54,281 bases of DNA from Faecalicoccus pleomorphus DSM 20574 (GTDB lineage: Bacteria; Bacillota_I; Bacilli_A; Erysipelotrichales; Erysipelotrichaceae): NCBI RefSeq assembly GCF_000420345.1, contig NZ_ATUT01000014.1:1-54281 (forward strand). The letters are read 5' to 3'. This document shows positions 32,799 to 53,510 of this stretch, piece after piece; positions within the stretch are counted from its first letter, which is position 1, and each line of letters starts with the position of its first letter. A model generated the notes under the pieces. It ran no database searches. It was not told the origin of the DNA and saw nothing but the letters and a program-made list of their open reading frames with translations. A program made the position numbers and the translations under genes.

Positions 32799-32822
32799 AA
32801 CACACTATTTTTATAGTGTGTT
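32799..32822 (+). promoter_or_regulatory. Perfect 10-bp palindrome, candidate operator
   Basis: AACACACTAT (32799-32808) and ATAGTGTGTT (32813-32822) form a perfect inverted repeat with spacer TTTT, directly adjoining the -35 element at 32823. The position suits a repressor or activator site for the divergent regulator. Its T-rich follow-up is short, so a terminator role is less likely. Confidence 0.6.
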
Positions 32823-32851
32823 TTGACTTCCTTTTTTAGTGTATGTATAAA
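32823..32851 (+). promoter_or_regulatory. Promoter of the PTS/sugar-acid operon
   Basis: TTGACT (32823-32828), a 17-base spacer and TATAAA (32846-32851), a good housekeeping-sigma promoter 33 bases before the first gene. No -24/-12 sigma-54 element was found. Confidence 0.65.
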
Positions 32852-32884
32852 AGAAATAGGCAAAGAAAGGAGAGACTTTAATTC

Positions 32885-33868
32885 ATGGAAAAAGTTGCGA
32901 TTGTGAATGTGAAAAGTTTTGGAAGAGAGTTTCCAGAATTTTTAGATGAGCTAAAAGAAAAAGTTGGTTATGTGGAAAAGTTTATATTTAGCCAGGATGC
33001 TTCTCAACAAGAGTTGATCGATAAATTGAAAGATTTTCACTATATCATTTTAGGAAATGATCCAACCTTCAAAGCGGAATTCTTTGAAAGTTGTCCAAAT
33101 TTGAAATTGATTGCCCGTCATGGACTAGGTTTCAATAACGTGGATCTGGAAGCGGCCAAAAAACATAATGTATATGTAACAAAAGAAGAAAATATCATCG
33201 AACAAGATGCTGTGGCTGAACATGCCGTTTCTTTATTAAATGTAGTGGCTAAAAACATTAACATTGCCAACCAGATGGTGCATCAAGGTGAATGGGGGGT
33301 TCGCCGTGAACGTTTAATGGGGTATCAGATAAGAGGAAAAGTAACCGGTGTTATTGGATATGGAAATATCGGAAGACGATTTGGGGAAATCATGAAATAT
33401 GGTTATAAAAATCGAATTTTAGCTTATGATCCATATTTACCGTCAGAAAAAGCCGAAGAGTATGGTATCGAGTTGGTTACCTTAGAAGAGTTGATGGCCA
33501 AATCTGATTTCATTTCGATGCATTGTAACTTAACAGATGAAAATAAGAAGATGATTAACAAAGATACTCTAAAGAAAGTTAAGAAAGGGGCCATCTTGAT
33601 CAATTGTGCTCGTGGCGCTTTGGTCGACGATGAAGCAGTTTTAGAAGCAGTCGAAAGTAGAGATTTGTTTGGATACGGAGCCGATGTGTGTTCTCAGGAA
33701 CCAATTCATCCAGATAATCCGTTATTAAATCATGACCATATTGTATTAACACCGCATGTTTCTGTTTATAACTTAACTTGTACAGAAAACATGAATCGAA
33801 AAGTTATGGAAGATATTTATCTAATTATGGAAGGTAAAAAACCCAATGTCATTGTAAATGGACTATAG
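32885..33868 (+). CDS. D-isomer-specific 2-hydroxyacid dehydrogenase (first of three)
   Basis: 327 residues, NAD-dependent family that interconverts 2-keto acids and D-2-hydroxyacids (phosphoglycerate, glycerate and hydroxypyruvate types). The Rossmann motif is G158-Y-G-N-I-G163; the catalytic triad Arg243 (CARGAL), Glu272 (SQEP) and His291 (TPHVS) is complete. It is the first gene of the large operon, with AAAGGAG upstream. Its placement with an aldolase suggests it reduces a keto acid or hydroxypyruvate made in the pathway. The exact substrate is not readable. Confidence 0.88.
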   Translation: MEKVAIVNVKSFGREFPEFLDELKEKVGYVEKFIFSQDASQQELIDKLKDFHYIILGNDPTFKAEFFESCPNLKLIARHGLGFNNVDLEAAKKHNVYVTKEENIIEQDAVAEHAVSLLNVVAKNINIANQMVHQGEWGVRRERLMGYQIRGKVTGVIGYGNIGRRFGEIMKYGYKNRILAYDPYLPSEKAEEYGIELVTLEELMAKSDFISMHCNLTDENKKMINKDTLKKVKKGAILINCARGALVDDEAVLEAVESRDLFGYGADVCSQEPIHPDNPLLNHDHIVLTPHVSVYNLTCTENMNRKVMEDIYLIMEGKKPNVIVNGL

Positions 33869-33884
33869 AGAAGGAGGAGAAGAA

Positions 33885-34541
33885 ATGACAAGACAGGAAA
33901 CGATTCAAACAATTGAAAAAGAAAAGATCGTAGTGATCACTCGAAACATTTATGATGAAGACTTATTGAAGCTGGCGCAAGCTTTGTATGAAGGTGGAAT
34001 TCGTTGTTTTGAAATCACATATGATCCAGCTGATCCAAACACAATGACAAAAATATCAGAAAATATGAAAATGCTCGAAGATCATTTTCATGGAGGATTA
34101 ACTCTTGGTGTGGGAACGGTACTTAATCCAGAACAAGTAATCAATGCCAAAAATGCAGGGGCAAAGTTTATTGTTTCGCCAAATTTCAAAAAAGAAGTGG
34201 TAGAGGAAACTTTGAAACAAGGATTGGTTTCTATGCCAGGTGCTATGACGCCTACAGAAGTCTTAGCTGCCGATGAAGCAGGAGCCGATTTTATTAAGCT
34301 GTTCCCAGCAGGAACGTTAGGAATCAAATATTGTAAAGATATTTATGCTCCGATTCATCATGTGAAATATATTGCTACGGTATCGGTTACAGAAGAAACA
34401 TTTGAAGAATATTTAAAAATTGGATTTGCCGGGGCTGGAATCAGTTCACGTTTAATTGATAAGAAATTGCGTGAAGAAGGCAATTATCAGGAATTAACGA
34501 ACAGAGCTAAGAGATTTGTAGAAATTGCAAAAAAATATTAG
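33885..34541 (+). CDS. KDPG/KHG-type aldolase (first copy)
   Basis: 218 residues, class I aldolase of the Eda/DgaF family, which cleaves 2-keto-3-deoxy acids (often phosphorylated) to pyruvate and an aldehyde. Glu43 (CFEITY) and the Schiff-base Lys138 (ADFIKLFPA) are present. The phosphate-binding glycines normally seen as TGGI are TVSV here and the last loop is GAGISSRL, so the substrate may differ from KDPG. GGAGGAG lies before the ATG at 33885; the frame is open upstream into the previous gene. Confidence 0.87.
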   Translation: MTRQETIQTIEKEKIVVITRNIYDEDLLKLAQALYEGGIRCFEITYDPADPNTMTKISENMKMLEDHFHGGLTLGVGTVLNPEQVINAKNAGAKFIVSPNFKKEVVEETLKQGLVSMPGAMTPTEVLAADEAGADFIKLFPAGTLGIKYCKDIYAPIHHVKYIATVSVTEETFEEYLKIGFAGAGISSRLIDKKLREEGNYQELTNRAKRFVEIAKKY

Positions 34542-34550
34542 GAGGAAAAC

Positions 34551-35039
34551 ATGGACAATTTAAAACTAACTCGTATCGATTTTCGTTTGATACATGGACA
34601 GGTAATGACGCGTTGGGTAAAGAAATATGATATTGAATCTATCGTGGTTATTGATGACAGATCCGCTAAGAGCGCTATTTTGAAAAAAATCTTGTTGAAT
34701 GCCGCTCCAGCAGGGGTCAAGGTCGAAGTGGAAAGTATTGAGAACGCTGCAAAAAGGTGGCAGGCAGGAGAAATGCCAAAGAACAATTTGTTGATTTTAT
34801 TTAAAGATCCTGCATCCGCTGCTAAAGCCTATCAGGCAGGCGTAAAATATCCTTCTCTACAGGTCGGTGGTGTTGAAGGTGCCGGTGACAAGAAAAACAT
34901 TTGTCGAAATATTGTTATGTCACAGGAAGATATCAACGCTTTGAAACCTGTATATGAAGCTGGGGTAAACATTTTCTGTCAGCCAATTCCAGAAGATGCG
35001 GAATATCCATTTAAATCAGCTTTAGAGAAATTTGACTAG
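34551..35039 (+). CDS. PTS system mannose-family EIIB component
   Basis: 162 residues. It accepts phosphate from EIIA on His15 in RIDFRLIHGQVMTRW and passes it to the incoming sugar. AGGAGG precedes the ATG. The gene order EIIB-EIIC-EIID-EIIA is that of mannose, sorbose and glucosaminate type systems; the family is known for aldoses, ketoses and sugar acids, so specificity is not decided. Confidence 0.93.
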   Translation: MDNLKLTRIDFRLIHGQVMTRWVKKYDIESIVVIDDRSAKSAILKKILLNAAPAGVKVEVESIENAAKRWQAGEMPKNNLLILFKDPASAAKAYQAGVKYPSLQVGGVEGAGDKKNICRNIVMSQEDINALKPVYEAGVNIFCQPIPEDAEYPFKSALEKFD

Positions 35040-35135
35040 CAGCGTTTCTAAAAGAAAAGGAAGGAGGAATCAAATCAAGAAACTCTTAAAATTTAATGCT
35101 TAAGTAATTCAAATAGTAAAGGAGAGAAAAATAAT

Positions 35136-35882
35136 ATGGTACAAGCATTATTAATGGCTTTACTGGCGTTATTCAACGGAACACAGGGACCAACATTCTG
35201 GTATTTCTTCCGTGAACCAGTTATGGCCGGTTTTTGGGTAGGATTGATCTATGGTGACCCTGTAATGGGTACTATGATCGGTGCGACAATCAACGTTTCC
35301 TATTTAGGTTGGATCAGTGCTGGTGGAGCCAATGCATCTGACTTATATTGGGCAGGTTTGTTAGGAACATTTGTTGCCATCCAGGGTGGCATGGATATTC
35401 AGCAAGCTGTTGCGTTTGCCGTTCCAGTTGGTTTGTTAGGTAACTACATGCATGTTGCTTACATGACAATTGCTTCTATCTGGCCAGTACGTATGGATAA
35501 ATTGGCTGAAAAAGGAAATTGGAAGGGCATTCGTAGATTACAGTTGTTAGGTGGACCTTCCGTCGTTGTATTAGTACGTTGTATTCCAGTATTCGTGATT
35601 GCTTACTTTGGTAGTGAATATATTCAAATCTTAATTGATAGTTTACCAACATGGGCTATGAATGGTTTGAGCGCAACCGGAAAACTTCTTCCAGCTCTAG
35701 GTATGTCAATGCTGATGAAGTTTATGTGGAAAAAGGAATTGGCAATTTTCTTCGTGCTAGGTTTTACAGTTGCAGCTTACTCTGGAATGACAGACTTGTT
35801 GCTGTATGCCATCTTAGGTACAGTACTTGCGGTTGTCCTTCTTAAACTTGGATTCCAGGCAAAACCTAAGGAGGTTGAATAA
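35136..35882 (+). CDS. PTS system mannose-family EIIC component
   Basis: 248 residues, several transmembrane helices. GTQGPTFWYFFREPVMAGF and GDPVMGTMIGATINVSYLGW are typical EIIC-Man segments. With EIID it forms the membrane channel. A 97-base spacer before it contains a GGAGG not followed by a usable start codon. GGAGAG precedes the real ATG. Confidence 0.93.
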   Translation: MVQALLMALLALFNGTQGPTFWYFFREPVMAGFWVGLIYGDPVMGTMIGATINVSYLGWISAGGANASDLYWAGLLGTFVAIQGGMDIQQAVAFAVPVGLLGNYMHVAYMTIASIWPVRMDKLAEKGNWKGIRRLQLLGGPSVVVLVRCIPVFVIAYFGSEYIQILIDSLPTWAMNGLSATGKLLPALGMSMLMKFMWKKELAIFFVLGFTVAAYSGMTDLLLYAILGTVLAVVLLKLGFQAKPKEVE

Positions 35883-35884
35883 TT

Positions 35885-36706
35885 ATGGAACAAATTCGTT
35901 TAACTAAAAAAGATGTCAATAAAGCCGTTGGCTGGTGGTGGTTCACATCCCACATGACATATAACTATCAACGTCTTCAGGCTGGACCTTTGGCCGGGAT
36001 GATGGGGCCAATCTTAAATAAACTTTATAAGGGTGATAAAGAAAAGGTTTCTGAAGGTCTAGTAAGACATATGCAATACTTCAACACAGAACCACGTTGG
36101 GGAGCTATCCTTCCTGGTATGGTTGTAGCGTTGGAAGAAGGTATGGCAAACGATGCTAGTGGTGAAATTGATGGTTCAATGATTACCGAAATCAAAACTG
36201 CTTTAATGGGTCCATTGGCTGGTATCGGTGACACGATTTGGGCTGGCCTGATCAAACCGGTAATCCTTTCCATTATATTGTCCTGGGCACAAGAAGGTAA
36301 TGTTTGGGCAGCATGGTTGTATGGTATAGGAGTTACTGCTTTAGACTTTGCGGTTACATACATTATGTTTACTCAAGGTTATAAATTAGGTATGGATTCT
36401 ATTGACAAGTTCCTTGAAGGTGGATTCATTGCGAAAGTTACTACATTCTTAGGTATTGTTGGTTTGTTCTGTCTTGGAGCCATGATTGTTAAATACGTTA
36501 CGATTTCAGCAGTTTTGACACTCGAAATGACAACGACAACTTTGGATTTTGGAGCTATTCTAAACCAGATTTTCCCATGTTCCGTTCCTCTAGCTTTAAC
36601 GTTCTTAGCTTATTGGCTGCAAGTTAAAGGCAGAAGCGTTACCACTGTATTACTGATTTTGTTCGTGATTGGTTTTGCTGGTGGTGCTATCGGATTCTTA
36701 GGATAG
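35885..36706 (+). CDS. PTS system mannose-family EIID component
   Basis: 273 residues. FTSHMTYNYQRLQAGPLAGMMGPIL near the start and MGPLAGIGDTIWAG are the EIID-Man signatures. It is the second membrane component and partners EIIC. AAGGAGG sits inside the EIIC end, coupling the two. A strong hairpin follows in the spacer to EIIA. Confidence 0.93.
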   Translation: MEQIRLTKKDVNKAVGWWWFTSHMTYNYQRLQAGPLAGMMGPILNKLYKGDKEKVSEGLVRHMQYFNTEPRWGAILPGMVVALEEGMANDASGEIDGSMITEIKTALMGPLAGIGDTIWAGLIKPVILSIILSWAQEGNVWAAWLYGIGVTALDFAVTYIMFTQGYKLGMDSIDKFLEGGFIAKVTTFLGIVGLFCLGAMIVKYVTISAVLTLEMTTTTLDFGAILNQIFPCSVPLALTFLAYWLQVKGRSVTTVLLILFVIGFAGGAIGFLG

Positions 36707-36717
36707 GACATAGAAAT

Positions 36718-36743
36718 CAGGAAAGGGGATAGCTCCTTTCCTG
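36718..36743 (+). repeat. Intercistronic hairpin between EIID and EIIA
   Basis: CAGGAAAGGGG (36718-36728) pairs with CTCCTTTCCTG (36733-36743), 11 bp with one G-T pair and loop ATAG. No T run follows, so it is more likely an mRNA processing or stability element than a terminator. Confidence 0.6.
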
Positions 36744-36766
36744 TTCATAGAGTATTTGGAGGATTT

Positions 36767-37180
36767 ATGATTCGAATTTTAATTGTGACACATGGAGAAT
36801 TGGCAAGTGCCTTAAAAACAAGTTCCAAGATGTTCTTTGGCGAAATGTCTGACAGTTTGGAAACGATTGGATTGTTTCCTACTGATAGTCCAGATAGCTT
36901 GCAGGTAAAAATCAAAGAAAAGATCAATGAGATCGATGACGGCTCTGGTGTATTGATTTTTGTGGATATTTTCGCAGGTTCTCCATTCAATAATGTGGCG
37001 ATTGTTTTAGATGAGTTAAAAGAAGACCACAAGTTACAGTGTTTTACAGGTGTCAATATGCCATTACTTATGGAAGCTTTGGCAAGTTGCCAAACGATGG
37101 ATATTGAAAGCCTTACAGACCATTTAGAAAAAGTTTCTAAAGATACGATCGTTAATTTAAGAAAAGCATTGGACATTTAA
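36767..37180 (+). CDS. PTS system mannose-family EIIA component
   Basis: 137 residues. The phosphorylated His9 is in LIVTHGELASAL; FVDIFAGSPFNNVA is the second family motif. It takes phosphate from HPr. It is encoded as a separate small protein after EIID. GGAGG precedes the ATG. Confidence 0.92.
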   Translation: MIRILIVTHGELASALKTSSKMFFGEMSDSLETIGLFPTDSPDSLQVKIKEKINEIDDGSGVLIFVDIFAGSPFNNVAIVLDELKEDHKLQCFTGVNMPLLMEALASCQTMDIESLTDHLEKVSKDTIVNLRKALDI

Positions 37181-37198
37181 TAGAAAGTTGGTGACATC

Positions 37199-37693
37199 AT
37201 GCTCTTTGGTATTCAGACAGAAGTATTTGAAGATACAAAATCACGAAAATTATTACATGTAAAGAAAAAAGATCTTTATTATCAGATCACAAAAAGCGAT
37301 GAGGCAAAAGTATTCTTGTTCTCAAAAGGCTTGATTAATGCGGTTTCCCTGGCTCTTATATTCGGTTTAATCTTACGTTGGCCAATTTGGGCTTATGTGG
37401 TTACGGCATTACTGATTTACGGATTTATTTTATATATGTTTAACGATAAAGTTTTACCAAAGATGCCTGTTGTCAACGCGAAAACAGTTGTCCGAAAAGA
37501 AGTGCCAAAAAAAGATAGAGGTTTTTCAATAGCTGGTATTGCTTACCTTGTCATCGCGTTTGGTCTTCTTTATTGCTTCTTTACTAATCAAGTTGAAAAG
37601 GGAATGATGACATATATCGTAATTGGGGCCATAGCTATTTCATTGGTTATGGGGGTTATGAACTTGTTTACTTACGGAAAAAAAACCGAATAA
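37199..37693 (+). CDS. Unknown four-helix membrane protein in the PTS operon
   Basis: 164 residues, not recognised. A 40-residue charged N-terminal part is followed by helices at about 43-59, 63-81, 110-128 and 136-157, with a basic loop between pairs two and three. It has no signal peptide and is not the DUF956/ManO protein found in some mannose PTS operons. Position directly after EIIA suggests an accessory to transport, for example assembly or regulation of the EIICD channel; this is inference only. Confidence 0.6.
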   Translation: MLFGIQTEVFEDTKSRKLLHVKKKDLYYQITKSDEAKVFLFSKGLINAVSLALIFGLILRWPIWAYVVTALLIYGFILYMFNDKVLPKMPVVNAKTVVRKEVPKKDRGFSIAGIAYLVIAFGLLYCFFTNQVEKGMMTYIVIGAIAISLVMGVMNLFTYGKKTE

Positions 37694-37707
37694 CATAGGA
37701 GAAATGT

Positions 37708-38748
37708 ATGGAAATATCAAAAGCATTGGTCGTTGAAAGCGTGAACCATTTGAAGTTTGTTGATTTGCCAAAACCGAAAATCGGTGATTTTGAAGTGTTA
37801 TTCAAAACACAATATTGTTCATTGTGTACCGTAGATCGAAGAACCTATAAAGGGACACGTAAGAAAAAACTTCCTTTCCTAGGTGGGCATGAATGCAGCG
37901 GTATCATTGAAGAAGTGGGAGATGGAGTGGTAGGTGTAAAGGCTGGAGACAAAGCCATCTTTACTTCCGGTTATTGCATGCAGTGTGAGCTCGATCGAAC
38001 AAATCGCGGTACCCAGTGTAATAAAAAAAGCGAAATGCCTCCTCGTGCTGTTTTTGATGGAACGATATTAGGTGGTGGATTAAGTGAGTACTTGGCTATA
38101 CCTGCGTGGCAAGTGATCAAAGTTCCGGATGATGTGGACCTAAAATATGCCTGTTTGACGGAACCCTTGGCTTGTTGCATACACAGTATCCGTAAATCAA
38201 GAATAAAAATTGGGGAAACTGTTTTGATCATAGGTCTTGGGGTCATGGGATATTTTCAGTTAAAACTAGCTCTTATGCAGGGAGCACGGGTTATTGTCAG
38301 CGAACCCGATCCAAAACGTCAAAAGAAAGCTTTAGAGAGTGGAGCTTGGGCAGTGTTGGATCCCACACAAGAAGACTTAGCTCAAAGAATTCATCAATTA
38401 ACCAACGGATTAGGGGCTGACGTGGTCATTAATACGATTCCTGCTTCTTCGATTTGGATGTCTTGTTTTGATATGTTGGCTCCTTATGGACGATTGATTG
38501 CGTATAGTTCTCAAGATGAGAAAAAAGGAATTCCAGTTGATTTTGGACAAATTCATGGAAAAGAATTTGAAATCATTGGGACACTGAATCCTAACTTAGA
38601 TGATAACGATGCTGCTGTAAAATTGATTAGTTATGGAATGATCGATATGGAACAGGTGATTGATGAAATTTATCCATTTGATCAGGGAAAACAAGCTTTT
38701 GATAAAGCTTGTGAACCAGGAATGTATAGAGTGCTAATTTCATATTAG
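37708..38748 (+). CDS. Zinc-dependent alcohol dehydrogenase, polyol/threonine dehydrogenase-like
   Basis: 346 residues, medium-chain dehydrogenase. Cys40 followed by TVD, GGHECSG (His61, Glu62) and Glu152 supply the catalytic zinc site; the NAD-binding GLGVMG is at 176-181. The structural zinc lobe keeps Cys90, Cys93 and Cys104, but the third cysteine of the usual four is absent. The family oxidises polyols or polyol phosphates to ketoses. The substrate is unknown. AGGAGA precedes the ATG. Confidence 0.87.
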   Translation: MEISKALVVESVNHLKFVDLPKPKIGDFEVLFKTQYCSLCTVDRRTYKGTRKKKLPFLGGHECSGIIEEVGDGVVGVKAGDKAIFTSGYCMQCELDRTNRGTQCNKKSEMPPRAVFDGTILGGGLSEYLAIPAWQVIKVPDDVDLKYACLTEPLACCIHSIRKSRIKIGETVLIIGLGVMGYFQLKLALMQGARVIVSEPDPKRQKKALESGAWAVLDPTQEDLAQRIHQLTNGLGADVVINTIPASSIWMSCFDMLAPYGRLIAYSSQDEKKGIPVDFGQIHGKEFEIIGTLNPNLDDNDAAVKLISYGMIDMEQVIDEIYPFDQGKQAFDKACEPGMYRVLISY

Positions 38749-38758
38749 GAGATTGTTT

Positions 38759-39589
38759 ATGTTAGTGACTTTAAATGAACTTTTACAAGATGCGAAAAAA
38801 GAAAACTATGCCATTCCCGCAACCAATGTGGATAATGAACATAACGTAAGAGCGGCTATACAGGCTGCAGAAAATAAGCACTCTCCTTTGATTTTGAATG
38901 TGACACCGGTTGCCAATCCGGATCTTGTCTTGTTCGGAAGTATTTGCAGGCGATTGATTGAAAAGGCCAATGTACCGATTGTTCTCAATCTGGATCATGG
39001 AAAAACATTTGAACAATGTATGTTGGGGATCCGCGCAGGATTTACCAATGTCATGATTGACCGCTCGTGGCTTCCATATGAGGAAAATGTAAAAGAAGTA
39101 AAAGAAATGGTGAAGATGTGCCATACCCTTGGTATCACTGTAGAAGCAGAGCTTGGACATGTGGGAATTGGTGAAAACTACCAACACGATGGCAATACAG
39201 CATTTACTCGTGTCGATGAGGCCATCGAGTTTATAAAAGAAACAAAAGTAGACGCTTTGGCTGTTGCGATTGGAACAGCACACGGTGTATACCAGGGAAC
39301 ACCTCATATTCATTTTGATTTACTTCATGATTTATCTAATGCGCTTCCAATTCCTTTAGTGTTACATGGAGGAAGTGGAACGGGAGATGAAAACTTGAAG
39401 CGATGTGCTCGTGAGGGAATCAATAAGATCAATTTGTCAAATGATTTAAAAAGGGCGGCAATCAATAACTTGATCGCAAAAGATCTTTCGGGTAACGAAG
39501 TCTATAATCTCTATCCGTTATTAGCAGAAGGCTTCCAAAAGAAGATCGAATATTTCATTGATTTGTTTGGATGTGCGAATCGAGTATGA
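38759..39589 (+). CDS. Class II ketose-bisphosphate aldolase (GatY/FbaA family)
   Basis: 276 residues. Zinc ligands His80, His175 (GTAHG) and His203 (LHGGSG) and the catalytic Asp79 (NLDHG) are present. The enzyme splits a ketose-1-phosphate or -1,6-bisphosphate into DHAP and an aldehyde. The ATG at 38759 follows AGGAG by 7 bases. Its stop overlaps the next start as ATGA. Confidence 0.9.
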   Translation: MLVTLNELLQDAKKENYAIPATNVDNEHNVRAAIQAAENKHSPLILNVTPVANPDLVLFGSICRRLIEKANVPIVLNLDHGKTFEQCMLGIRAGFTNVMIDRSWLPYEENVKEVKEMVKMCHTLGITVEAELGHVGIGENYQHDGNTAFTRVDEAIEFIKETKVDALAVAIGTAHGVYQGTPHIHFDLLHDLSNALPIPLVLHGGSGTGDENLKRCAREGINKINLSNDLKRAAINNLIAKDLSGNEVYNLYPLLAEGFQKKIEYFIDLFGCANRV

Positions 39590-40416
39590 TCAAATACATT
39601 TTTGTTGATTTGGATGGTACATTTTTGGATTCAAACAAACAAGTTTCCAAAGATTGTGTTCAATTTATTAAAGATTTGAAAAAACAGTATGATGTTCATT
39701 TTGGGATTGCATCTGGACGTGCACTAACTTCTTTGCTTCCTTTGGTACAGAAACAAGAGCTCGATGAAATCATAGATGTCATTGTTGCAAACAATGGAGC
39801 TGAAATTTTGGACTGGGAATCAAAAAAAATCATAAATCTTCCCTTTGTCCAAAAAGAAGAGATTCAAATAATCTTAAACACGTTTCAAAACTGGAAGGGT
39901 CTTACGATTTGTTTCCATAATAAAAATAAGTTATTTGCTTCAAGAACAACAGAACGAATTCTTGGCATACAACGATTTAATAATGAAGAATACTTGTCAA
40001 ATCCTTTGAAAAACAACTCCTACCTGTCAACTCCTAGAGTAATGTTGATTTTAGATAAACCCGTTGATGAAGAGTATGTTAAGAAAATTCGTACCGTTAG
40101 TTTTGAGGGACTAACGAGTTGTCGTTCAGAAAATGATGTATATGAATTTATGAATAAAGAAACATCGAAGGCCAATGGTATTAAACAATATGTGACACAA
40201 AGAGATTCTTCTTTAGACGAAGTTATGGTGTTTGGCGATAGTGACAATGACATTGAAATGCTGAAAGAATGTAAGCTGGGTATCGCAATGAAAAATGCCC
40301 GGCCAATGATTCAGAATGTGAGTGATGATATCACATATAAAACCAATGATGAAGAAGGAGTAATGGATTACTTGCTCCATCATATAGACTTATTTGAAAG
40401 AGTAATAGAGGGATAA
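39586..40416 (+). CDS. Cof-type HAD hydrolase
   Basis: 276 residues, HAD subfamily IIB with a large C2 cap. Motif I is FVDLDGTFLD, and motif IV is FGDSDNDIEML; the ending GIAMKNA is typical of the Cof/YidA group. Such enzymes dephosphorylate sugar phosphates or phosphonate-like esters. In this operon it could release a phosphorylated dead-end. Its start overlaps the aldolase stop. Confidence 0.87.
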   Translation: MIKYIFVDLDGTFLDSNKQVSKDCVQFIKDLKKQYDVHFGIASGRALTSLLPLVQKQELDEIIDVIVANNGAEILDWESKKIINLPFVQKEEIQIILNTFQNWKGLTICFHNKNKLFASRTTERILGIQRFNNEEYLSNPLKNNSYLSTPRVMLILDKPVDEEYVKKIRTVSFEGLTSCRSENDVYEFMNKETSKANGIKQYVTQRDSSLDEVMVFGDSDNDIEMLKECKLGIAMKNARPMIQNVSDDITYKTNDEEGVMDYLLHHIDLFERVIEG

Positions 40417-40417
40417 A

Positions 40418-41200: not shown

Positions 41201-41201
41201 A

Positions 41202-43311: not shown

Positions 43312-43323
43312 GAGATAAATATT

Positions 43324-44903: not shown

Positions 44904-44921
44904 TTGGAAGGAAGTGTATAT

Positions 44922-46100: not shown

Positions 46101-47239
46101 TGAAAAAGGCAGTTGTGATTGGAGCTGGTCAAACAGGGCGTGGATATTTAGTTCGTTTTCTGTTTGAAAAAAATTATGATATTACTTTGATCGATAAAAA
46201 TGAGCGGTTGATAGATTATCTCCAAGAAGATAAAGCATTCTGTATTCATTTTTATTCAAAAGATAGAACACCTTTATATGTGCATGGGCTGAAAGCGTAT
46301 TTAAGTTATTCTACGGAAGCCAAACAAGCAATTCATGATGCAGATATTATTTTTACTTCTGTTGGTGAACAAAATTTAGGCGATGTAGCCAAACAGATTC
46401 AGGAAGGCATTGCCGGGCGTGAAGATAAGGTAGTTATGTTGACGGCGGAAAATGGAATCAATCCAGGGAAAGTGCTGACCAATCATTTAAAAGATTTAGG
46501 AGTAAAAGAAAATTTTACCGTATCTATGACGGCCGTCTTCTGCTCAACGGTTGCCTTAGATAAGACAAGATTGGATATCTTGTCTATGAATGAATACTAC
46601 TTCCCGTTTGATGCGGACGCCCTTGATGAAATTGATTTTGAAGGAGCGGTTCCTATTCATGACTTTGAAAAGTTCTTAAAAAGAAAGATTTATACGTATA
46701 ACTGCTTGGCAGGTTTGATCTCTTATTGCGGATATATCAAAGACTATGAAGTCTATGGCGATGCTGCTAATGATCCCGACATTGCCGAAATGATGGATAT
46801 TCTTTTAGAAGATTTAAATCCGGCTTTACAGGATTATTTCCAGATTACAAAAGAAGATCAGGAAGAGTTTGCCCAACGCGCTATGCGTAAGATGAAAAAC
46901 AAAGATATTCTAGATTTCAATGTAAAAAATGGACGTGCCGCAAAACGTAAATTAGGACCAACAGAGAGAATCATGTCACCTATGAAAATTTTAAAAGAGC
47001 ATGACAAAGATACACGAATCATGGAATTCGTGGCGGCAGCTGCTTTGGTGTATTGGGAAGAACTCCAAGGAAATGGCAGTGAACCTGTATTAACAAAATC
47101 ACCAATCGAAACATTCTGTGATATAAATGGTCTTTCTGTAGACGATGCCATGGTGAAACGGGTGGAAAAATATTATGAGTTGATCAAGGCCAATCGCCAT
47201 AACATCTGCATGAAAGAGCTTGTCTATTCTGTGGAGTAG
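46100..47239 (+). CDS. MtlD-like polyol/uronate dehydrogenase, catalytic His replaced (second copy)
   Basis: 379 residues, paralog of the preceding gene. It shows GAGQTGRGY at the N-terminus, TAENGI, and KLGPTERIMSP corresponding to the first copy's LRPEDRLIGP. In the K-x4-N-x2-H motif Lys196 and Asn201 remain, but the His is Ala204 (KIYTYNCLA). The start shares one base with the upstream stop; an in-frame ATG at 46085 lies against a ribosome site and is less likely. The pair may work as a heteromer. Confidence 0.82.
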   Translation: MKKAVVIGAGQTGRGYLVRFLFEKNYDITLIDKNERLIDYLQEDKAFCIHFYSKDRTPLYVHGLKAYLSYSTEAKQAIHDADIIFTSVGEQNLGDVAKQIQEGIAGREDKVVMLTAENGINPGKVLTNHLKDLGVKENFTVSMTAVFCSTVALDKTRLDILSMNEYYFPFDADALDEIDFEGAVPIHDFEKFLKRKIYTYNCLAGLISYCGYIKDYEVYGDAANDPDIAEMMDILLEDLNPALQDYFQITKEDQEEFAQRAMRKMKNKDILDFNVKNGRAAKRKLGPTERIMSPMKILKEHDKDTRIMEFVAAAALVYWEELQGNGSEPVLTKSPIETFCDINGLSVDDAMVKRVEKYYELIKANRHNICMKELVYSVE

Positions 47240-47243
47240 TGAG

Positions 47244-47924
47244 ATGAGTAAACATAGAGAAATTAAAATCAGCGGTTCCTTGTCTTGTATCGATTTATTG
47301 CATATAAAAGACCAGATGGATTTGATTAATCAAACCCATCTGTCTTTTCTACATTATGATGTGGTGGATGGGAAGTTCAACGATTGTTTTGTGTTCGGAG
47401 ATTTAATTTTAGAAAAGCTTCGACCTTTGACTACAAAGCCTATCGTGGTGCATTTGGCAGTGGAAGATATCAAGCCTTATATCAAACCGATGATCAAAGC
47501 AGGTGCTGATTATCTTGCGGTGCATTATGAAACACCTTGCGATCATAAAGAAGTATTTGAAGAGATTCGCTCTTTAGGAGCTAAACCCATCTTGGCTTTT
47601 CGATGTGAAACACCCGTTCCAGAAGATTTCTTAGAATTGGTTGGCCAGGTTGAAAGTATTTTGAAATTGACGGTCAATCCGGGGTATGCCGGACAGCCTA
47701 TACAAAAACAAGCTTTAAAACATATTCAAATTATGCGCGAATACTTGGATAAGGCGAATATAAATATGGATATTGAAGCTGATGGCAATATCAATGTGCA
47801 TACAATCCCTGAAGTAGTTCAGGCGGGGGCAACGATCCTGACAGGGGGAACTTCTGGTTTATTTAATGATAAGGCAAGCATACAAGAAAATTATGATTTG
47901 ATGATGGAGGCGGCAAAGATATGA
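47244..47924 (+). CDS. Ribulose-phosphate 3-epimerase family protein (divergent copy)
   Basis: 226 residues, TIM barrel. Metal ligands are kept: His and Asp in FLHYDVVDG, His in VVHLAVE and Asp in EADGNI; the VNPGYAGQ phosphate loop is present. Motifs depart from true RPE (DVVDG for DIMDG, TVNPG preceded by LKL), so an epimerase for another ketose phosphate, such as allulose-type, is more likely. It overlaps the next gene as ATGA. Confidence 0.82.
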   Translation: MSKHREIKISGSLSCIDLLHIKDQMDLINQTHLSFLHYDVVDGKFNDCFVFGDLILEKLRPLTTKPIVVHLAVEDIKPYIKPMIKAGADYLAVHYETPCDHKEVFEEIRSLGAKPILAFRCETPVPEDFLELVGQVESILKLTVNPGYAGQPIQKQALKHIQIMREYLDKANINMDIEADGNINVHTIPEVVQAGATILTGGTSGLFNDKASIQENYDLMMEAAKI

Positions 47925-48580
47925 AGCCAATATTATGCCCTAGTATGATGTGTTGTAACTTTTCCAATTTAAAAGAGGAGATGGCTCTATTGGAAGAAGC
48001 GAAGATCGATATGTATCACTGCGATATCATGGATGGAACCTTTGTTCCTAATATGGCTTTGGGAATTTCAGATATCCAGGCGATACGCTCTTTGACAAAC
48101 AAAAAGATCGACGCACATTTGATGATTGATTCACCAGCAAATAAAGTGGATTGGTTTATAGATGCCGGTGCCGATATCATTTATCTGCATCCAGAATCTG
48201 AGATGTATGTCATCAAAACTATTCAGCACATTCATGAACGAAAAAAAGAAGCGGGCGTTGCAATCAATCCCGATATTAGCCTTGTTTCTTTGGAGGAGTT
48301 GTATCCTTTCTGTGATTATATTTTAGTGATGACAGTGAATCCGGGCTTTGCGGGACAAAGTTTTATAGAAAGTATGGATCGAAAAATTGAAAGACTGGTT
48401 CATCTGAAACAAAAATATGGTTTTCAAATTATTATGGATGGTGCTTGTTCTCCTGAAAGAATTAAAGCTTACTCTTGTTGCGGTGTAGATGGGTTTGTAT
48501 TAGGAACTAGCGCGTTGTTTAAAGAAGATAAAAAATATAAAGAACGATTGGATGAATTGAGGGGTGTTTGTGGCAGATAA
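47921..48580 (+). CDS. Ribulose-phosphate 3-epimerase family protein
   Basis: 219 residues with standard motifs: YHCDIMDGTFVPN, AHLMI, GVAINPD, VMTVNPGFAGQSF and IIMDGACS. It interconverts ketose phosphates at carbon 3, with ribulose-5-P/xylulose-5-P or D-allulose-6-P/fructose-6-P as the likely pairs. It is adjacent to a divergent paralog. The end overlaps the next gene by 11 bases. Confidence 0.88.
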   Translation: MKPILCPSMMCCNFSNLKEEMALLEEAKIDMYHCDIMDGTFVPNMALGISDIQAIRSLTNKKIDAHLMIDSPANKVDWFIDAGADIIYLHPESEMYVIKTIQHIHERKKEAGVAINPDISLVSLEELYPFCDYILVMTVNPGFAGQSFIESMDRKIERLVHLKQKYGFQIIMDGACSPERIKAYSCCGVDGFVLGTSALFKEDKKYKERLDELRGVCGR

Positions 48581-49277
48581 GAGATTGGAGATTTTAAAAC
48601 AATTCGATACACCAAGTATTACCAACGTGGTCGCAACGTATCCGGAAAAAGACTATTGTTTGGGTCTTTATGATCCCTGGCAAGAATCTTGGTACACCAA
48701 TCAGAAAGCTAAAGTGATGTATCCAGAATTAGGACCGGTGACAGGGTATGCCATAACTTGTACATATGGTTTGCCCGACCAACATTATCAACGACTTTCA
48801 TTTCCAGATGTGCTGAGAACTATTTCCGCATTAAATGAGCCTGTTGTGTTAGTTGTGAAACAGAATTTGCCAAAACGAATTAAAAATAAAAATGGTTTAC
48901 TTGGTGGGAATATGATGACAGCGCTTAAATCAGTGGGTGTCGTTGGGGTAATCTCAGATGGGCCAAGTCGGGATATTGATGAAGTAAGACCATTAGGAAT
49001 GCAATATATGCTTAGTGGCGTATGTCCAGGACATGGTAAATGGTCCATCAAGTCGATCAATACACCCGTGAAAGTGTTTGATATGGCAGTTTCTCCAGGA
49101 GAAATCATTCATATGGATGAAAATGGGGCGGTTAAATTTCCAGCTAGCGTTTTAGATGATGTGATCAAAAATGCCCAAAATCTTCGTATTATTGAAGAAA
49201 AACGGCAAGCACAAATGCGCCGAACACAAGATGTGAATAAGATTATTGACATTATGGCAGGACTTTATGATGACTAA
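48570..49277 (+). CDS. RraA-like aldolase/decarboxylase family protein
   Basis: 235 residues. GGNMMTALKSVGVVGVISDG followed by PSRDIDEV is the RraA/HMG-aldolase signature with the catalytic Arg-Asp, so it is more likely an enzyme (retro-aldol cleavage or oxaloacetate-type decarboxylation) than an RNase E inhibitor. The GTG at 48570 follows GAGGGG by 5 bases; GTG at 48564 is within that site. It overlaps both neighbours. Confidence 0.8.
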   Translation: MADKRLEILKQFDTPSITNVVATYPEKDYCLGLYDPWQESWYTNQKAKVMYPELGPVTGYAITCTYGLPDQHYQRLSFPDVLRTISALNEPVVLVVKQNLPKRIKNKNGLLGGNMMTALKSVGVVGVISDGPSRDIDEVRPLGMQYMLSGVCPGHGKWSIKSINTPVKVFDMAVSPGEIIHMDENGAVKFPASVLDDVIKNAQNLRIIEEKRQAQMRRTQDVNKIIDIMAGLYDD

Positions 49278-49533
49278 TGAACAGGTTTTAAAAATCGATG
49301 AAAATGACAATGTCGTGGTTGCTATACGGGATATTAATAAAGGGGAAACGATTGTTGTGTCTTCTTTAAAAATACAGGTACAGGATGAGATTCCCATATA
49401 TCATAAAATGGCAATTGAGGATATTTCTTTAGGAAGTCCTATTCTAAAATATGGGGAATGTATAGGCTTTGCGTATAAAGATATAAAGCAAGGGCAACAT
49501 GTTCATACACATAATTTAAGGAGCAAGAATTGA
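49270..49533 (+). CDS. UxaA-type dehydratase, small SAF-domain subunit
   Basis: 87 residues forming a SAF domain (NVVVAIRDINKGETI, LGSPILKYGECIGFAYKDIKQGQHVHTHNL). It matches the N-terminal part of altronate/galactarate dehydratases, here a separate gene as in split UxaA or SuyA proteins. ATG at 49270 is 7 bases after AGGA; ATG at 49267 is also possible. The large subunit starts 3 bases after its stop. Confidence 0.85.
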   Translation: MTNEQVLKIDENDNVVVAIRDINKGETIVVSSLKIQVQDEIPIYHKMAIEDISLGSPILKYGECIGFAYKDIKQGQHVHTHNLRSKN

Positions 49534-49536
49534 GTT

Positions 49537-50727
49537 ATGAAGATCAATGGATACAAGAGGGAATGTGATGGGATCTATGGGATTCGAAACCATGTACTGA
49601 TTTTACCAACTAGTATTTGCGCCTCGGATGTGGCGCGAATCGTATCGGAAAAGGTGGATGGGACCATCACCTTCCATAATCATCTGGGTTGTTCACAGAC
49701 AAAAATTGATACAGCTTATACAATATCTACCATGGCAGGAATGGCTGCCAATCCCAATGTGTATGGTGTTGTTGCGATTTCCTTAGGATGTGAGAACTGT
49801 CAAATGGATCGAGTGGTTACCGAGATCAAAAGTCGAACCAAAAAACCATTAGAGACATTTATTATCCAGGAAGTCCCAGGAGTTGAAAAAACCATTGAGT
49901 TAGCTACTAAGGCGGCTATAAAAATGGTGGAAGAAGCCAAGGCAATGTCTAAAACAGAGTTCGAAATCTCCAATTTAATTTTAGGAACAGAATGTGGCGG
50001 TTCGGATCCTACCAGTGGTCTTGTGTCCAACGTTTTGGTGGGCCATGTTTCCGATCGAATGGTTTCTTTAGGTGGAACTTCGATTTTATCGGAAACTACA
50101 GAATTTATTGGAGCACAGCACATTTTAAAAAAAAGGGCTCGAAATACTTCGGTAGCCACTCACATTGATGAAATTATTGAGCGATATGAAGAAAGTCAGT
50201 ACAGTGTGGGAGATGATATTCGTATGCGAAATCCTTCTCCAGGCAACCAAAGAGGTGGGATTACCACTTTGGAGGAGAAATCTTTAGGATGTATCAAAAA
50301 ATCAGGCTCTAGCATGATTCAGGATGTTTTTGATTATGCCCAGCCCATCAGTTGCAAAGGCCTTGTAATCATGGATACACCGGGGAATGATTCTATCAGT
50401 ATGATGGGAATGGTGGCAGGGGGTTGTTCCTTGATTTTGTTTACGACCGGACAAGGCACACCATTAGGCAATCCACTTGTACCAGTGATCAAAATCACCG
50501 GTAATCAGCAAACGGCAGAAAAAATGAAAGAATCAATTGACTTCGACTGTAGTGAAGGATTAAATTCAAACAATATGGATGAGCTGGAGAATGCTTTGTT
50601 CTCGCTGATTCTCGATGTGTGTAATGGAAAAAAGACCAAGTCGGAAATCTATGGAATATGTGAATGTTCAATCGTTCGGGTTTCAAAATATGTAAAAGAC
50701 GGAGTTGTTCGAAAGACTTATTTTTGA
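49537..50727 (+). CDS. UxaA/GarD-type dehydratase, large subunit
   Basis: 396 residues. GIRNHVLILPTSICASDVA, HNHLGCSQ, LGCENCQ, ECGGSDPTSGL and DTPGNDSISMMG are motifs of the UxaA/GarD catalytic domain, which dehydrates sugar acids to 2-keto-3-deoxy acids. The same fold split in two is also used by (2R)-sulfolactate sulfo-lyase SuyAB. With two pyruvate aldolases downstream in logic, sugar-acid dehydration is preferred. AGGAG lies upstream. Confidence 0.86.
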   Translation: MKINGYKRECDGIYGIRNHVLILPTSICASDVARIVSEKVDGTITFHNHLGCSQTKIDTAYTISTMAGMAANPNVYGVVAISLGCENCQMDRVVTEIKSRTKKPLETFIIQEVPGVEKTIELATKAAIKMVEEAKAMSKTEFEISNLILGTECGGSDPTSGLVSNVLVGHVSDRMVSLGGTSILSETTEFIGAQHILKKRARNTSVATHIDEIIERYEESQYSVGDDIRMRNPSPGNQRGGITTLEEKSLGCIKKSGSSMIQDVFDYAQPISCKGLVIMDTPGNDSISMMGMVAGGCSLILFTTGQGTPLGNPLVPVIKITGNQQTAEKMKESIDFDCSEGLNSNNMDELENALFSLILDVCNGKKTKSEIYGICECSIVRVSKYVKDGVVRKTYF

Positions 50728-50741
50728 GAGGGGTATCTAGT

Positions 50742-51338
50742 ATGAATCCAACTGGATTAATTTTGTTATTCTTTGTGATTCTTGTGTTTATGACGCCTTT
50801 TATAAGAAAGAGCTTAAAAAACAGGAAACAATATTGGTTTGCGCATTTATTAAACACAAAATCATACGAGGAGATGGAAAAGGGACTAAATGCATTTTCT
50901 TCCAAAGCTTTGTTTCCACGATATGAACTTGAATGTTATAGACTACAGATGTATTTAGTTCAAAATAATTCAAAAAAAGTTGATGAACAGTATCAAGTCA
51001 CAATTGAATCGGCTGTAACTAAGAAACAAAAAATAGAGATTTATACTAATGCGTTTGAACATTATGTTATGTTGGCGGATAAGTCAAAAAGTCTTGAATT
51101 GAAAAACAAGTTAAAGGAGTTCAATGATGAGTCTTTAAATGCACGATGTCAAATGTTGTATGATATTTTTGTGAATAAGAAGTCAAAATACATTGATCAA
51201 CTGGAGAAGAATTTTGATAAACTCCAAGACTCTGAGAAAATGCTATCTGCTTATTTGTTGTCGGTACAATATACGAATAAAGGGGATACAAAAAAGGCGG
51301 ATTACTATAGTAATCTTTCTAAAGATTTTTTTGAATAG
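50742..51338 (+). CDS. Unknown membrane-anchored helical-repeat protein
   Basis: 198 residues, not recognised. Residues 5-21 are one hydrophobic segment followed by basic residues, so the rest lies in the cytosol. The body is charged and helical with TPR-like pairs (FPRYELECYRLQMYLVQNN, LSAYLLSVQYTNKGDTKKADYYSNL). GAGGGG precedes the ATG at 50742. It sits inside a catabolic operon between a dehydratase and glycerate kinase; a scaffold role is possible but unproven. Its stop codon lies in a terminator. Confidence 0.6.
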   Translation: MNPTGLILLFFVILVFMTPFIRKSLKNRKQYWFAHLLNTKSYEEMEKGLNAFSSKALFPRYELECYRLQMYLVQNNSKKVDEQYQVTIESAVTKKQKIEIYTNAFEHYVMLADKSKSLELKNKLKEFNDESLNARCQMLYDIFVNKKSKYIDQLEKNFDKLQDSEKMLSAYLLSVQYTNKGDTKKADYYSNLSKDFFE

Positions 51339-51370
51339 CGGTTTTCTCTTAGGAGAGAATCGCTTTTTTT
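51337..51370 (+). terminator. Internal terminator within the operon
   Basis: AGCGGTTTTCTC (51337-51348) pairs with GAGAGAATCGCT (51353-51364), 12 bp with two G-T pairs and loop TTAG, followed by T7. It lies 12 bases before the glycerate kinase start, so the last two genes may be expressed at a lower level. Confidence 0.8.
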
Positions 51371-51382
51371 GAAGGAGAATTT

Positions 51383-52522
51383 ATGAATGTATTGATAGCG
51401 ATTGATTCCTTTAAAGGAGCGGTTTCTTCTTTAGAAGCTGGTCTTTCTTTAAAATCGGGATTATCTATTAATCCTGATTTAAAGTTACAAGTTTGTGCGG
51501 TTTCTGATGGTGGAGAAGGAAGCTTGGAAGTTTTGTCCCAAAATGGCATAGGGACTTATCAGAAAATGATGTGTAAAGATTCCTTTGGTAGAGATACTAT
51601 GGTAAATGTTTTGTTCTTTGAAGAAGAGGATAAGAAATGTTGCGCCATTGAAACGGCTTCGATGATAGGAATTCAGGGACAAAATCCGACTCCTAATACA
51701 GTGATGACCACTTCTAGTTATGGCTTAGGGCAATTGATTTGTCATTTGATGGAAAACCAAATCAGTAAAATCATTGTATTTGTCGGAGGTACGATAACTA
51801 CCGATGCCGGTCTGGGGGCATTACAGGCATTGGGCCTTTCTTTATATGATGAGAAACATGAACTTTTAGCGAATCATGCAAATCCTCTTATGGACTTTGA
51901 TCATTTTGATAAAGAGAAGCTGCAACAAATCCAAAATCATTTAAAAAAAATCGAACTTGTTGTCGGAGTGGACGTCAATGCTCCTTTGTATGGAACTTAT
52001 GGTTGTTCTCAAATGTATGCTCGGCAAAAAGGGGCTGATGAAAAACAAATCCAACAAATGGAAGGCCATTTAAGAAAGTTGGATGAACAATGTGATTTAG
52101 ATTTGATGGAACCTGGCTGCGGGGCCGGAGGAGGCTTGGCAGCTGGATTAAAAATAATTGGCGGAGATATTGTGCCAGGTTTTGATATCGTGAAACATTT
52201 CATTGATTTAACAAGTAAAGTACAATGGTCAGATCTGATCATTACTGGAGAAGGGACAATCAATGATCAAACTCTGCAAGGGAAATTGCCTTTATGTATG
52301 GCAGAAATGGCTAAAAAAGAGAAAAAATCAATCATAGCCTTGTGTGGGCAGAAAAATTATACAGACAAGTCGTTAAACGATTGGTTTGATGGTATTTTCT
52401 CGATCCAACCGAGTATTTGTTCATTACAAGAAGCTATTCAAAACACAAAAGTAAATCTAGAAGAAATCGGATTCCAATTTGGGAAACTGTTTAAGAGGAA
52501 TCATCATGAGAATCGAAGCTAA
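51383..52522 (+). CDS. Glycerate kinase (GlxK/GarK family)
   Basis: 379 residues. AIDSFKGAVSSLEAG at the start, VSDGGEGSLE, VFVGGTITTDAGLGALQALG and EPGCGAGGGLAAGL are the family motifs. It phosphorylates D-glycerate, usually at carbon 2, feeding lower glycolysis. This gives the operon a clear C3 exit and supports glycerate as an intermediate. GAAGGAG precedes the ATG. The end overlaps the next gene by 17 bases. Confidence 0.93.
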   Translation: MNVLIAIDSFKGAVSSLEAGLSLKSGLSINPDLKLQVCAVSDGGEGSLEVLSQNGIGTYQKMMCKDSFGRDTMVNVLFFEEEDKKCCAIETASMIGIQGQNPTPNTVMTTSSYGLGQLICHLMENQISKIIVFVGGTITTDAGLGALQALGLSLYDEKHELLANHANPLMDFDHFDKEKLQQIQNHLKKIELVVGVDVNAPLYGTYGCSQMYARQKGADEKQIQQMEGHLRKLDEQCDLDLMEPGCGAGGGLAAGLKIIGGDIVPGFDIVKHFIDLTSKVQWSDLIITGEGTINDQTLQGKLPLCMAEMAKKEKKSIIALCGQKNYTDKSLNDWFDGIFSIQPSICSLQEAIQNTKVNLEEIGFQFGKLFKRNHHENRS

Positions 52523-53510
52523 GGAAATGCACTCTATATTTTTTAAAATTTTAGTAAACCATGGTGTACCCAAAGAATACGCTGGCGATTGGGCGCAGAT
52601 TTTTGTGGATAATAGTTTGGTTGGTGTTTATAGCCATGGGATCAACCGTTTTAAAAAAATTATAGAATATTTAGATAAGGGTCTTATCAATATCCATGAA
52701 CAATGTACTTGCGAAGTAAAAATAGGAAATATCGAACGTTGGAATGGGCATTATGGAATTGGTCCGCTCAATGCGAAAAGAGCAGTTTTAAGAGCTTGCG
52801 AGCTTGCCAAAGAACAAGGTATCGGTATCGTTGCAGTAGGTAATAATAATCACTGGCTTCGTGGTGGATATTATGGTTCTCTGGCTGCTGATCAAGGTTG
52901 TATATGTATCTGTTGGTCTAATACTAAGCCCAATATGCAAGCTTGGGGAAGCGTGGATACCAATATTGGAAACAATCCCGTCGTGCTCGCTGTACCAGAT
53001 ATCTCTAAAGAACATATAATTTTAGATTGTGCTGTTTCTCAGTTTTCCTATGGAAAAATCGAAGAATGTATGTTGAAGAATATTGAGCTTCCAGTTCCTG
53101 GTGGCTTCGATGAAAAAGGAAAGCTTACGAGGGATCCCTCTATTATTTATCAAACCAAAAGAGTTTTACCTATGGGATATTGGAAAGGAAGCGGATTATC
53201 CATTTTATTAGACTTGATTGGCACGATATTAAGTAATGGGAATTCTGTTATGAAGATTGGAAGCTTTGAAAGAGAGATTGGACTTACACAGATTTTTATT
53301 GTGGTTGATCCTTTAAAATTTATTAGCATAGAGAAAATGAATCGAATAGTTCATGATCTTAAAAAATCATTAAAAGATTCTCATCCTATCCAAGAAGGAG
53401 AAGAAGTCTATTATCCTGGTGAATTAGAAACCAAGGCAAGAAAAGAAAATCTGAAAAAAGGCCTGCCTGTCATAGAGGCTAAATGGAAAGAAATCTTGAA
53501 TCTACTTTAA
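52506..53510 (+). CDS. Ldh_2-family oxidoreductase (YiaK/ComC/malate dehydrogenase type)
   Basis: 334 residues. VGVYSHGINRF (SHG catalytic His), VGNNNHWLRGGYYG and MGYWKGSGLSILLDL match the NAD(P)-dependent Ldh_2 family, which includes 2,3-diketogulonate, ureidoglycolate and sulfolactate dehydrogenases. It reduces a 2-keto acid to a hydroxyacid or the reverse. AGAGGA precedes the ATG at 52506. It is the last gene before a 209-base spacer without a clear terminator. Confidence 0.88.
   Translation: MRIEAKEMHSIFFKILVNHGVPKEYAGDWAQIFVDNSLVGVYSHGINRFKKIIEYLDKGLINIHEQCTCEVKIGNIERWNGHYGIGPLNAKRAVLRACELAKEQGIGIVAVGNNNHWLRGGYYGSLAADQGCICICWSNTKPNMQAWGSVDTNIGNNPVVLAVPDISKEHIILDCAVSQFSYGKIEECMLKNIELPVPGGFDEKGKLTRDPSIIYQTKRVLPMGYWKGSGLSILLDLIGTILSNGNSVMKIGSFEREIGLTQIFIVVDPLKFISIEKMNRIVHDLKKSLKDSHPIQEGEEVYYPGELETKARKENLKKGLPVIEAKWKEILNLL

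Follow-up and report, generated by a model that had tools for sequence, protein, structure and literature searches.

New enzyme subfamilies in a conserved PTS catabolic operon of Faecalicoccus pleomorphus, possibly for a sugar acid

The 54281-base contig NZ_ATUT01000014.1 of Faecalicoccus pleomorphus DSM 20574, which was analyzed in its entirety and is hereafter called the window, carries a phosphotransferase system (PTS) catabolic operon of a known sort, with new enzyme subfamilies. As judged from the open reading frames (ORFs), spacing, and protein families of the contig, it comprises 25 complete genes on the forward strand (32885-53510), tightly packed and often overlapping. In our reading, the PTS feeds the catabolism of one sugar acid, or of a small set of isomers, a proposal to which we assign a rough probability of 0.45; a polyol is the nearest alternative, and a sugar acid is favored over a polyol as the substrate class. 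A preliminary description of this DNA had reported a co-directional, overlapping array from 32885 together with its gene families, and the ORFs, their spacing, and the Pfam/NCBIfam assignments agree with it. The PTS genes and the enzymes discussed first are given below, with percentages referring to the counterpart in G429, a genome from the same family and another genus.

32885-33868, forward strand: DHA1, D-2-hydroxyacid dehydrogenase (PF02826/PF00389; 52% to G429)
33858-34541, forward strand: KDPG1, class I aldolase of the 2-keto-3-deoxy-6-phosphogluconate (KDPG) type, with an altered distal loop (PF01081)
34551-35039, forward strand: PTS EIIB, mannose/sorbose family (PF03830)
35136-35882, forward strand: PTS EIIC, mannose/sorbose family (PF03609)
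35885-36706, forward strand: PTS EIID, mannose/sorbose family (PF03613)
36767-37180, forward strand: PTS EIIA, mannose family (PF03610)
40418-41200, forward strand: HpcH/HpaI-family lyase (PF03328)
42346-43311, forward strand: DHA2, hydroxypyruvate/glyoxylate reductase-like (PDB matches to glycerate dehydrogenase/glyoxylate reductase)
43324-43965, forward strand: KDPG2, second KDPG-type aldolase, of a different subfamily (PF01081; tree)
43965-44903, forward strand: DHA3, D-2-hydroxyacid dehydrogenase (PF02826; 67% to G429)
44904-46100, forward strand: MtlD1, MtlD-like dehydrogenase with a motif His lost (PF01232/PF08125)
46085-47239, forward strand: MtlD2, second MtlD-like dehydrogenase, of a separate clade and with the same His lost (family profiles, motif alignment, tree)

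Gene order, compact form, and regulation

A comparison of gene order across relatives, as proposed in the preliminary description, identified a long version of the operon in G429, with 22 reciprocal best hits at 25-75% identity. Twenty of these matches are collinear with the array, an order reached in 0 of 200,000 shuffles, and the shared arrangement is not due to chance. The array is one conserved catabolic locus, as the G429 order indicates and as had been described, with the qualification that its glycerate kinase (GlxK) and Ldh_2 genes are set off by the first of the two following features:

51337-51364, forward strand: intrinsic-terminator-like hairpin (12 pairs and a T run; -17.7 kcal/mol, z -3.3)
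53720-54280, forward strand: N-terminal half of a transketolase (PF00456), truncated by the contig end at 54281

The hairpin lies inside the supposed single operon, between the gene for a 224-aa protein and that for glycerate kinase. Because it is strong and precedes GlxK, GlxK-Ldh_2 may constitute a separate or a read-through unit. The long operon of G429 is devoid of Ldh_2, the transketolase, and both parts of a split dehydratase (SAF and GDAH), it includes two extra 2-hydroxyacid dehydrogenases (five in total), and its GlxK is only 29% identical to that of F. pleomorphus. The hairpin and these differing tails lead us to favor a partly mosaic make-up for the 3' end of the long array. Since the window is a complete contig, the last gene is cut and the array may extend further. 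Intergenic spacing is mostly between -64 and +18 bases, with wider gaps between EIIB and EIIC (96 bases), between EIID and EIIA (60), before GlxK (44), and before the transketolase (209). The EIID-EIIA gap harbors a stable hairpin with no T run (36705-36768; -17.9 kcal/mol), which may set relative expression. Across the window, G+C content shows no shift that would set the operon apart as foreign. Two parts of the long operon are present in genome G502, on separate contigs, and no matches to MtlD1 or KDPG1 were found in the three same-genus genomes searched.

A compact version of eight genes with a divergent regulator, in the order IIA, IIC, IID, DHA, IIB, KDPG1, MtlD1, and MtlD2, is carried by G409 (taken as Amedibacillus dolichus DSM 3991, contig NZ_DS483474.1), a Eubacteriales metagenome-assembled genome, G429, and G502. 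Its composition defines the minimum set, which is a PTS, a 2-hydroxyacid dehydrogenase, a KDPG-type aldolase, and two MtlD-like dehydrogenases. In A. dolichus, MtlD2 is followed by a 31% homologue of the 224-aa protein and by a transaldolase of the FSA type.

Upstream of the first gene, two further features were identified:

30275-32623, reverse strand: divergent regulator of 782 aa with a DagR/LevR-type N-terminus (NCBIfam NF047795, DagR, over residues 10-196)
32799-32822, no strand assigned: perfect palindrome AACACACTAT-TTTT-ATAGTGTGTT with 10-bp arms, a candidate operator

The regulator scores 78 bits against NF047795, far below the cut-off, and matches no Pfam family. A divergent regulator is placed likewise in every relative whose contig includes the operon start, and this arrangement, together with the DagR-type N-terminal match, makes it part of the locus. 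The palindrome occurs once in the window and adjoins a TTGACT-17-TATAAA sequence ahead of the first gene; its coordinate 32799 coincides with the position from which the preliminary description counts the region. The word TGTGTAA, a motif picked post hoc, has 9 occurrences where 0.8 would be expected over six regulator-operon gaps, and five of the six operons have it in this gap. A sigma-54 promoter was also considered and discarded, the matches being at chance level only.

Enzyme subfamilies of the operon

The model of MtlD1 (pLDDT 89) has MtlD (3h2z) as its best match, and in a tree of 37 proteins both MtlD1 (7 rows) and MtlD2 (8 rows, including two that come from PTS loci of the fructose type) form clades separate from that of E. 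coli MtlD (20 rows). The K-x4-N-x2-H motif keeps its Lys and Asn in both clades, and its His is replaced in all seven MtlD1 and all eight MtlD2 rows; the same His is retained in 22/22 other MtlD-family rows, including E. coli MtlD. The RKLxxxxR motif is retained in both proteins. Neither reaches the MtlD (mannitol-1-phosphate 5-dehydrogenase) equivalog cut-off of 356 bits, MtlD1 scoring 227 and MtlD2 126. Each of the two trees divides into long-operon and compact-operon types, so that both genes must have been duplicated together. The array, with its paired paralogs, had previously been read as handling two or more stereoisomers or a branched route; for the most part, a role of the pairs as stereoisomer duplicates is not supported. 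The MtlD-like pair represents ancient, separate clades that co-occur even in the eight-gene compact operon, and for this reason the two proteins look like two steps of one route rather than spare copies. Subfamily also differs between the two KDPG-type aldolases, as it does among the three 2-hydroxyacid dehydrogenases.

The D-2-hydroxyacid dehydrogenases have the NAD fold (Pfam), with Arg and His motifs found by search and the Glu read in the sequences; each long operon encodes three to five of them, from several subfamilies. This number points to 2-hydroxy/2-oxo acid chemistry.

KDPG1 is modeled with the KDPG/KDPGal fold (pLDDT 87) and retains Arg29, Glu52, Thr87, and the Schiff-base Lys147. 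The residues Lys147, Glu52, and Arg29 occur in 6/6 KDPG1 rows, which places the protein in the KDPG/KHG aldolase family, and its score of 146 bits against eda (cut-off 156) leaves it outside the specific KDPG aldolases. All operon copies fall within one clade of nine rows, seven of which come from PTS operons. At the C4/phosphate end, the TGG loop has lost its first Gly in every row of this clade and reads TVS, TVG, or AAG. The sister pair of this clade retains TGG, and one of its members adjoins a KDG-kinase-like gene (KDG, 2-keto-3-deoxygluconate). Asp56 of KDPG1, at the position of Eda Arg49, was considered as a marker for a non-pyruvate donor and dropped, because, as in the Thermotoga enzyme, that side is covered by Arg29, and because KDPG1-type genes that lie outside PTS operons, including one beside a KDG-kinase-like gene, also encode Asp56.

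The HpcH protein keeps the metal ligands Glu154 and Asp180, with Tyr46 in place of the catalytic His and Lys71 in place of the catalytic Arg (three orthologues), and so lacks part of the residue set (metal ligands plus catalytic His/Arg) of HpcH/HpaI aldolases. Active-site pockets were judged from alignments. MtlD1, MtlD2, KDPG1, and HpcH look re-specialized rather than decayed.

Entry through a mannose-type PTS, as the preliminary description had it, is borne out by all four components EIIABCD, each above the cut-off of its Pfam model and below every substrate-specific NCBIfam cut-off. The remaining genes of the array are the following:

37199-37693, forward strand: small membrane protein with no family (34% homologue at the equivalent position in G429)
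37708-38748, forward strand: ZnADH, zinc polyol/alcohol dehydrogenase (PF08240/PF00107; zinc motifs present)
38753-39589, forward strand: FBA2, class II ketose-(bis)phosphate aldolase (PF01116; zinc ligand motifs present)
39571-40416, forward strand: HAD-IIB (Cof-type) phosphatase (PF08282; TIGR00099 above cut-off)
41202-42362, forward strand: FeADH, iron-type alcohol dehydrogenase, YqhD-like (PF00465; NF011717, 261 bits)
47220-47924, forward strand: RPE1, ribulose/allulose-phosphate 3-epimerase-like (PF00834; nearest PDB entry AlsE 3ct7)
47921-48580, forward strand: RPE2, ribulose/allulose-phosphate 3-epimerase-like (PF00834)
48564-49277, forward strand: RraA-like lyase (PF03737; DGxxRD motif kept; 70% to G429)
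49246-49533, forward strand: SAF domain, the smaller piece of a split UxaA/GarD-type dehydratase (PF08666)
49537-50727, forward strand: GDAH, the larger piece of that dehydratase (PF20629/PF04295)
50664-51338, forward strand: 224-aa protein with no family (one N-terminal membrane segment, by eye)
51383-52522, forward strand: glycerate kinase, GarK/GlxK family (PF02595; TIGR00045 above cut-off)
52479-53510, forward strand: Ldh_2 enzyme, 3-dehydro-L-gulonate 2-dehydrogenase model (PF02615; NF009750)

The families named in the preliminary description are all present, and its gene list had missed the 782-aa regulator, the HAD-type phosphatase, and the two small proteins at 37199-37693 and 50664-51338. 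Nearly all array proteins fall below NCBIfam equivalog cut-offs; the named exception is Ldh_2, which scores 374.7 bits against a cut-off of 316 for 3-dehydro-L-gulonate 2-dehydrogenase (YiaK), its predicted activity. RPE1 and RPE2 both have the metal-binding HxD, H, and D motifs and do not reach the substrate-specific equivalogs.

Related combinations of these enzymes were observed at other loci. In G547 (locus L104), a DHA, a KDPG-type aldolase, and a zinc alcohol dehydrogenase stand with galactitol-type-PTS-like genes; in G608 (locus L098), the neighbors of KDPG1 and DHA3 are an ABC transporter and an NAL-like gene; and in G027 and G378, a xylose-isomerase-like TIM barrel, an MtlD2-like protein, and a KDPG-type aldolase are encoded beside a regulator and PTS genes. 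Clusters of the last kind, at L022 16197-18791 and L012 15843-18454 (both reverse strand), are related, simpler, and uncharacterized. It seems that the same enzyme toolkit has been combined repeatedly with different importers. Two genomes (L100 and L101) have Edd-type dehydratase-like, KDPG-type aldolase-like, and KDG-type kinase-like genes together, with neighbors that by eye are FdrA- and DUF1116-like (oxamate carbamoyltransferase-like) and an acetate-kinase-like gene. Near or next to KDPG-aldolase loci in L104, L098, and L013 are ABC transporters that by eye look like the Afu/iron type, some members of which carry sugar phosphates. A separate locus of G502 (contig C36) encodes a split GD_AH dehydratase, an MR_MLE enzyme, and a 2-hydroxyacid-dehydrogenase-like protein. 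No MtlD2 relatives were found on viral contigs, and plasmid searches returned generic MtlD and KDPG matches only.

Proposed route and alternatives

In the sugar acid route that we propose, the mannose-family EIIABCD would phosphorylate the substrate on entry. MtlD1, MtlD2, and the D-2-hydroxyacid dehydrogenases would then oxidize or epimerize its carbinols to give a 2-oxo acid phosphate, with the RPE-like enzymes inverting C3 in the long version. A KDPG-type aldolase would cleave the 2-oxo acid to a C3 keto acid and triose phosphate or a related aldehyde, the keto acid being pyruvate, or hydroxypyruvate if no dehydration precedes. DHA2 and glycerate kinase would carry hydroxypyruvate-type products to phosphoglycerate. 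ZnADH, FeADH, FBA2, HpcH, and RraA may serve side branches, and the split dehydratase, Ldh_2, and transketolase would be additions in the F. pleomorphus operon that are not in the other long operon. An acid is likelier than a plain alditol because each long operon has several 2-hydroxyacid dehydrogenase subfamilies and every operon has a KDPG-type aldolase. Aldol cleavage and C3 salvage had been anticipated in the preliminary description, and the enzyme classes support both. Glycerate kinase is found in all four genomes compared, and both genomes with the long operon have a second copy located within it (the other F. pleomorphus copy is on contig C21), which fits a glycerate-type product.

Four sugar-acid dehydratase families were searched for by profile. 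The A. dolichus genome (98% complete) was without a match to ILVD_EDD, GD_AH, or UxuA, and its MR_MLE matches all fell below threshold. GD_AH was found in neither G429 nor G409, and a dehydratase beside the aldolase was seen in the window, as the split GD_AH protein. One ILVD_EDD match of ~560 aa lies outside the operon in both the F. pleomorphus genome and G429. Because A. dolichus has none of the four families, the compact core does not resemble a usual Entner-Doudoroff branch; for the same reason, its substrate may be already 3-deoxy, cleavage may proceed with no dehydration, or a dehydratase of another family may act.

Several points weigh against the sugar acid route. Its substrate, site of phosphorylation, and order of steps are all inferred from sequence, and two MtlD-family enzymes with RPE-like epimerases fit a polyol or ketose phosphate equally well. 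A near relative of KDPG1 outside PTS operons adjoins KDG-kinase-like and MR_MLE-like genes, a plain KDPG context, so the product may be pyruvate and not hydroxypyruvate. Finally, the absence of a dehydratase in A. dolichus refers to four families in a profile search, and the long operon of F. pleomorphus does contain a dehydratase.

An alditol route is doubtful, and comes first among the alternatives. Here the PTS would import one or more hexitols or pentitols, MtlD1, MtlD2, and ZnADH would make ketose phosphates, RPE1 and RPE2 would epimerize C3, and FBA2 would split the product, while the 2-hydroxyacid dehydrogenases would serve solely as an electron sink, turning pyruvate into D-lactate. 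The MtlD fold with its phosphate-end motif, allulose-6-phosphate epimerase as the nearest solved structure to RPE1, the FSA-type transaldolase after the A. dolichus compact operon, and the G547 locus with its galactitol-type-PTS-like genes all speak for it. However, it leaves the KDPG-type aldolase of every operon with no role, it does not account for MtlD proteins that are missing the His kept by all 22 other family members compared, and three to five 2-hydroxyacid dehydrogenases are too many for one redox sink.

We consider it rather unlikely that the array is a mosaic throughout, in which a regulator-PTS core for one compound acquired GarD/GarL/GarK-like aldarate, ketose-phosphate, and YiaK-like sets, so that several substrates reach the same C3 products. 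The genes absent from the long operon of G429, the divergence of GlxK between the two long operons, the hairpin ahead of it, and the modules on separate G502 contigs agree with such a history, but the order of twenty genes is kept across genera, including genes that a mosaic would separate.

A more specific form of the sugar acid route, kinase-free and dehydratase-free, seems improbable in its full detail. Aldonate phosphates made by the PTS would be oxidized at C2 and sorted by the C3 epimerases, re-specialized KDPG-type aldolases would cleave full 2-keto-aldonate phosphates to hydroxypyruvate and triose phosphate, and hydroxypyruvate reductase and glycerate kinase would close the redox balance.

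Very unlikely is a substrate that is itself a 3-deoxy hexonate or 3-deoxy sugar (a Maillard or alkaline degradation product, KDG-like), with its two C2 epimers oxidized by 2-hydroxyacid dehydrogenase and MtlD-type enzymes, so that KDPG aldolase could directly cleave the resulting 2-keto-3-deoxy acid phosphate: this accounts for the dehydratase-free compact core and for C2 oxidation paired with a KDPG-type aldolase, but the altered TGG loop of KDPG1 makes plain KDPG a non-obvious substrate, the RPEs, HpcH, and glycerate kinase are left unexplained, and no literature support was found, that on 3-deoxyglucosone and 3-deoxyfructose giving no link to a PTS operon.

Comparison with known systems

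No described pathway with the gene set of the array was found in the open-licence literature, in agreement with the preliminary description. The operon marks out a conserved, uncharacterized carbon-source pathway in a family that includes the gut species A. dolichus (formerly Eubacterium dolichum). It contains at least three re-specialized subfamilies, namely the two MtlD-like clades, the KDPG1 clade, and the His-less HpcH, which automatic annotation is likely to label as mannitol-1-phosphate dehydrogenase, KDPG aldolase, and HpcH aldolase. Because a named type strain has the eight-gene compact form, the identity of the substrate can be put to a direct test.

With the galactarate/glucarate pathway (GarD, GarL, GarR, and GarK), the window shares a GarD-type split dehydratase, an HpcH/HpaI lyase, and a GarK-type glycerate kinase. 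However, these three are all far below the equivalog cut-offs, the window has no gene for a GarR-type reductase, its HpcH lacks the catalytic His/Arg, and the dehydratase is missing from the other long operon. Entner-Doudoroff aldonate pathways have in common with the array a KDPG-type aldolase that yields a C3 keto acid and triose phosphate, whereas the operons have neither an Edd-type dehydratase nor a sugar-acid kinase, and none of the four dehydratase families is present in A. dolichus.

The D-glucosaminate PTS operon (dga) of Salmonella combines a DagR-type regulator, a mannose-family EIIABCD, and an aldolase end step that yields pyruvate and triose phosphate. The array likewise has a DagR-type regulator region, a mannose-family EIIABCD, and an aldolase end step. 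It differs in that its regulator resembles DagR over the first 190 residues only, and in that its 26 genes include neither a glucosaminate-6-phosphate ammonia-lyase nor any pyridoxal phosphate-dependent lyase, with many dehydrogenases instead. Finally, hexitol PTS operons with MtlD share with the array a PTS and an MtlD-fold dehydrogenase, but the PTS of the array is of the mannose and not the mannitol type, its MtlD-like proteins form two His-less clades, and its core has a KDPG-type aldolase and a 2-hydroxyacid dehydrogenase.

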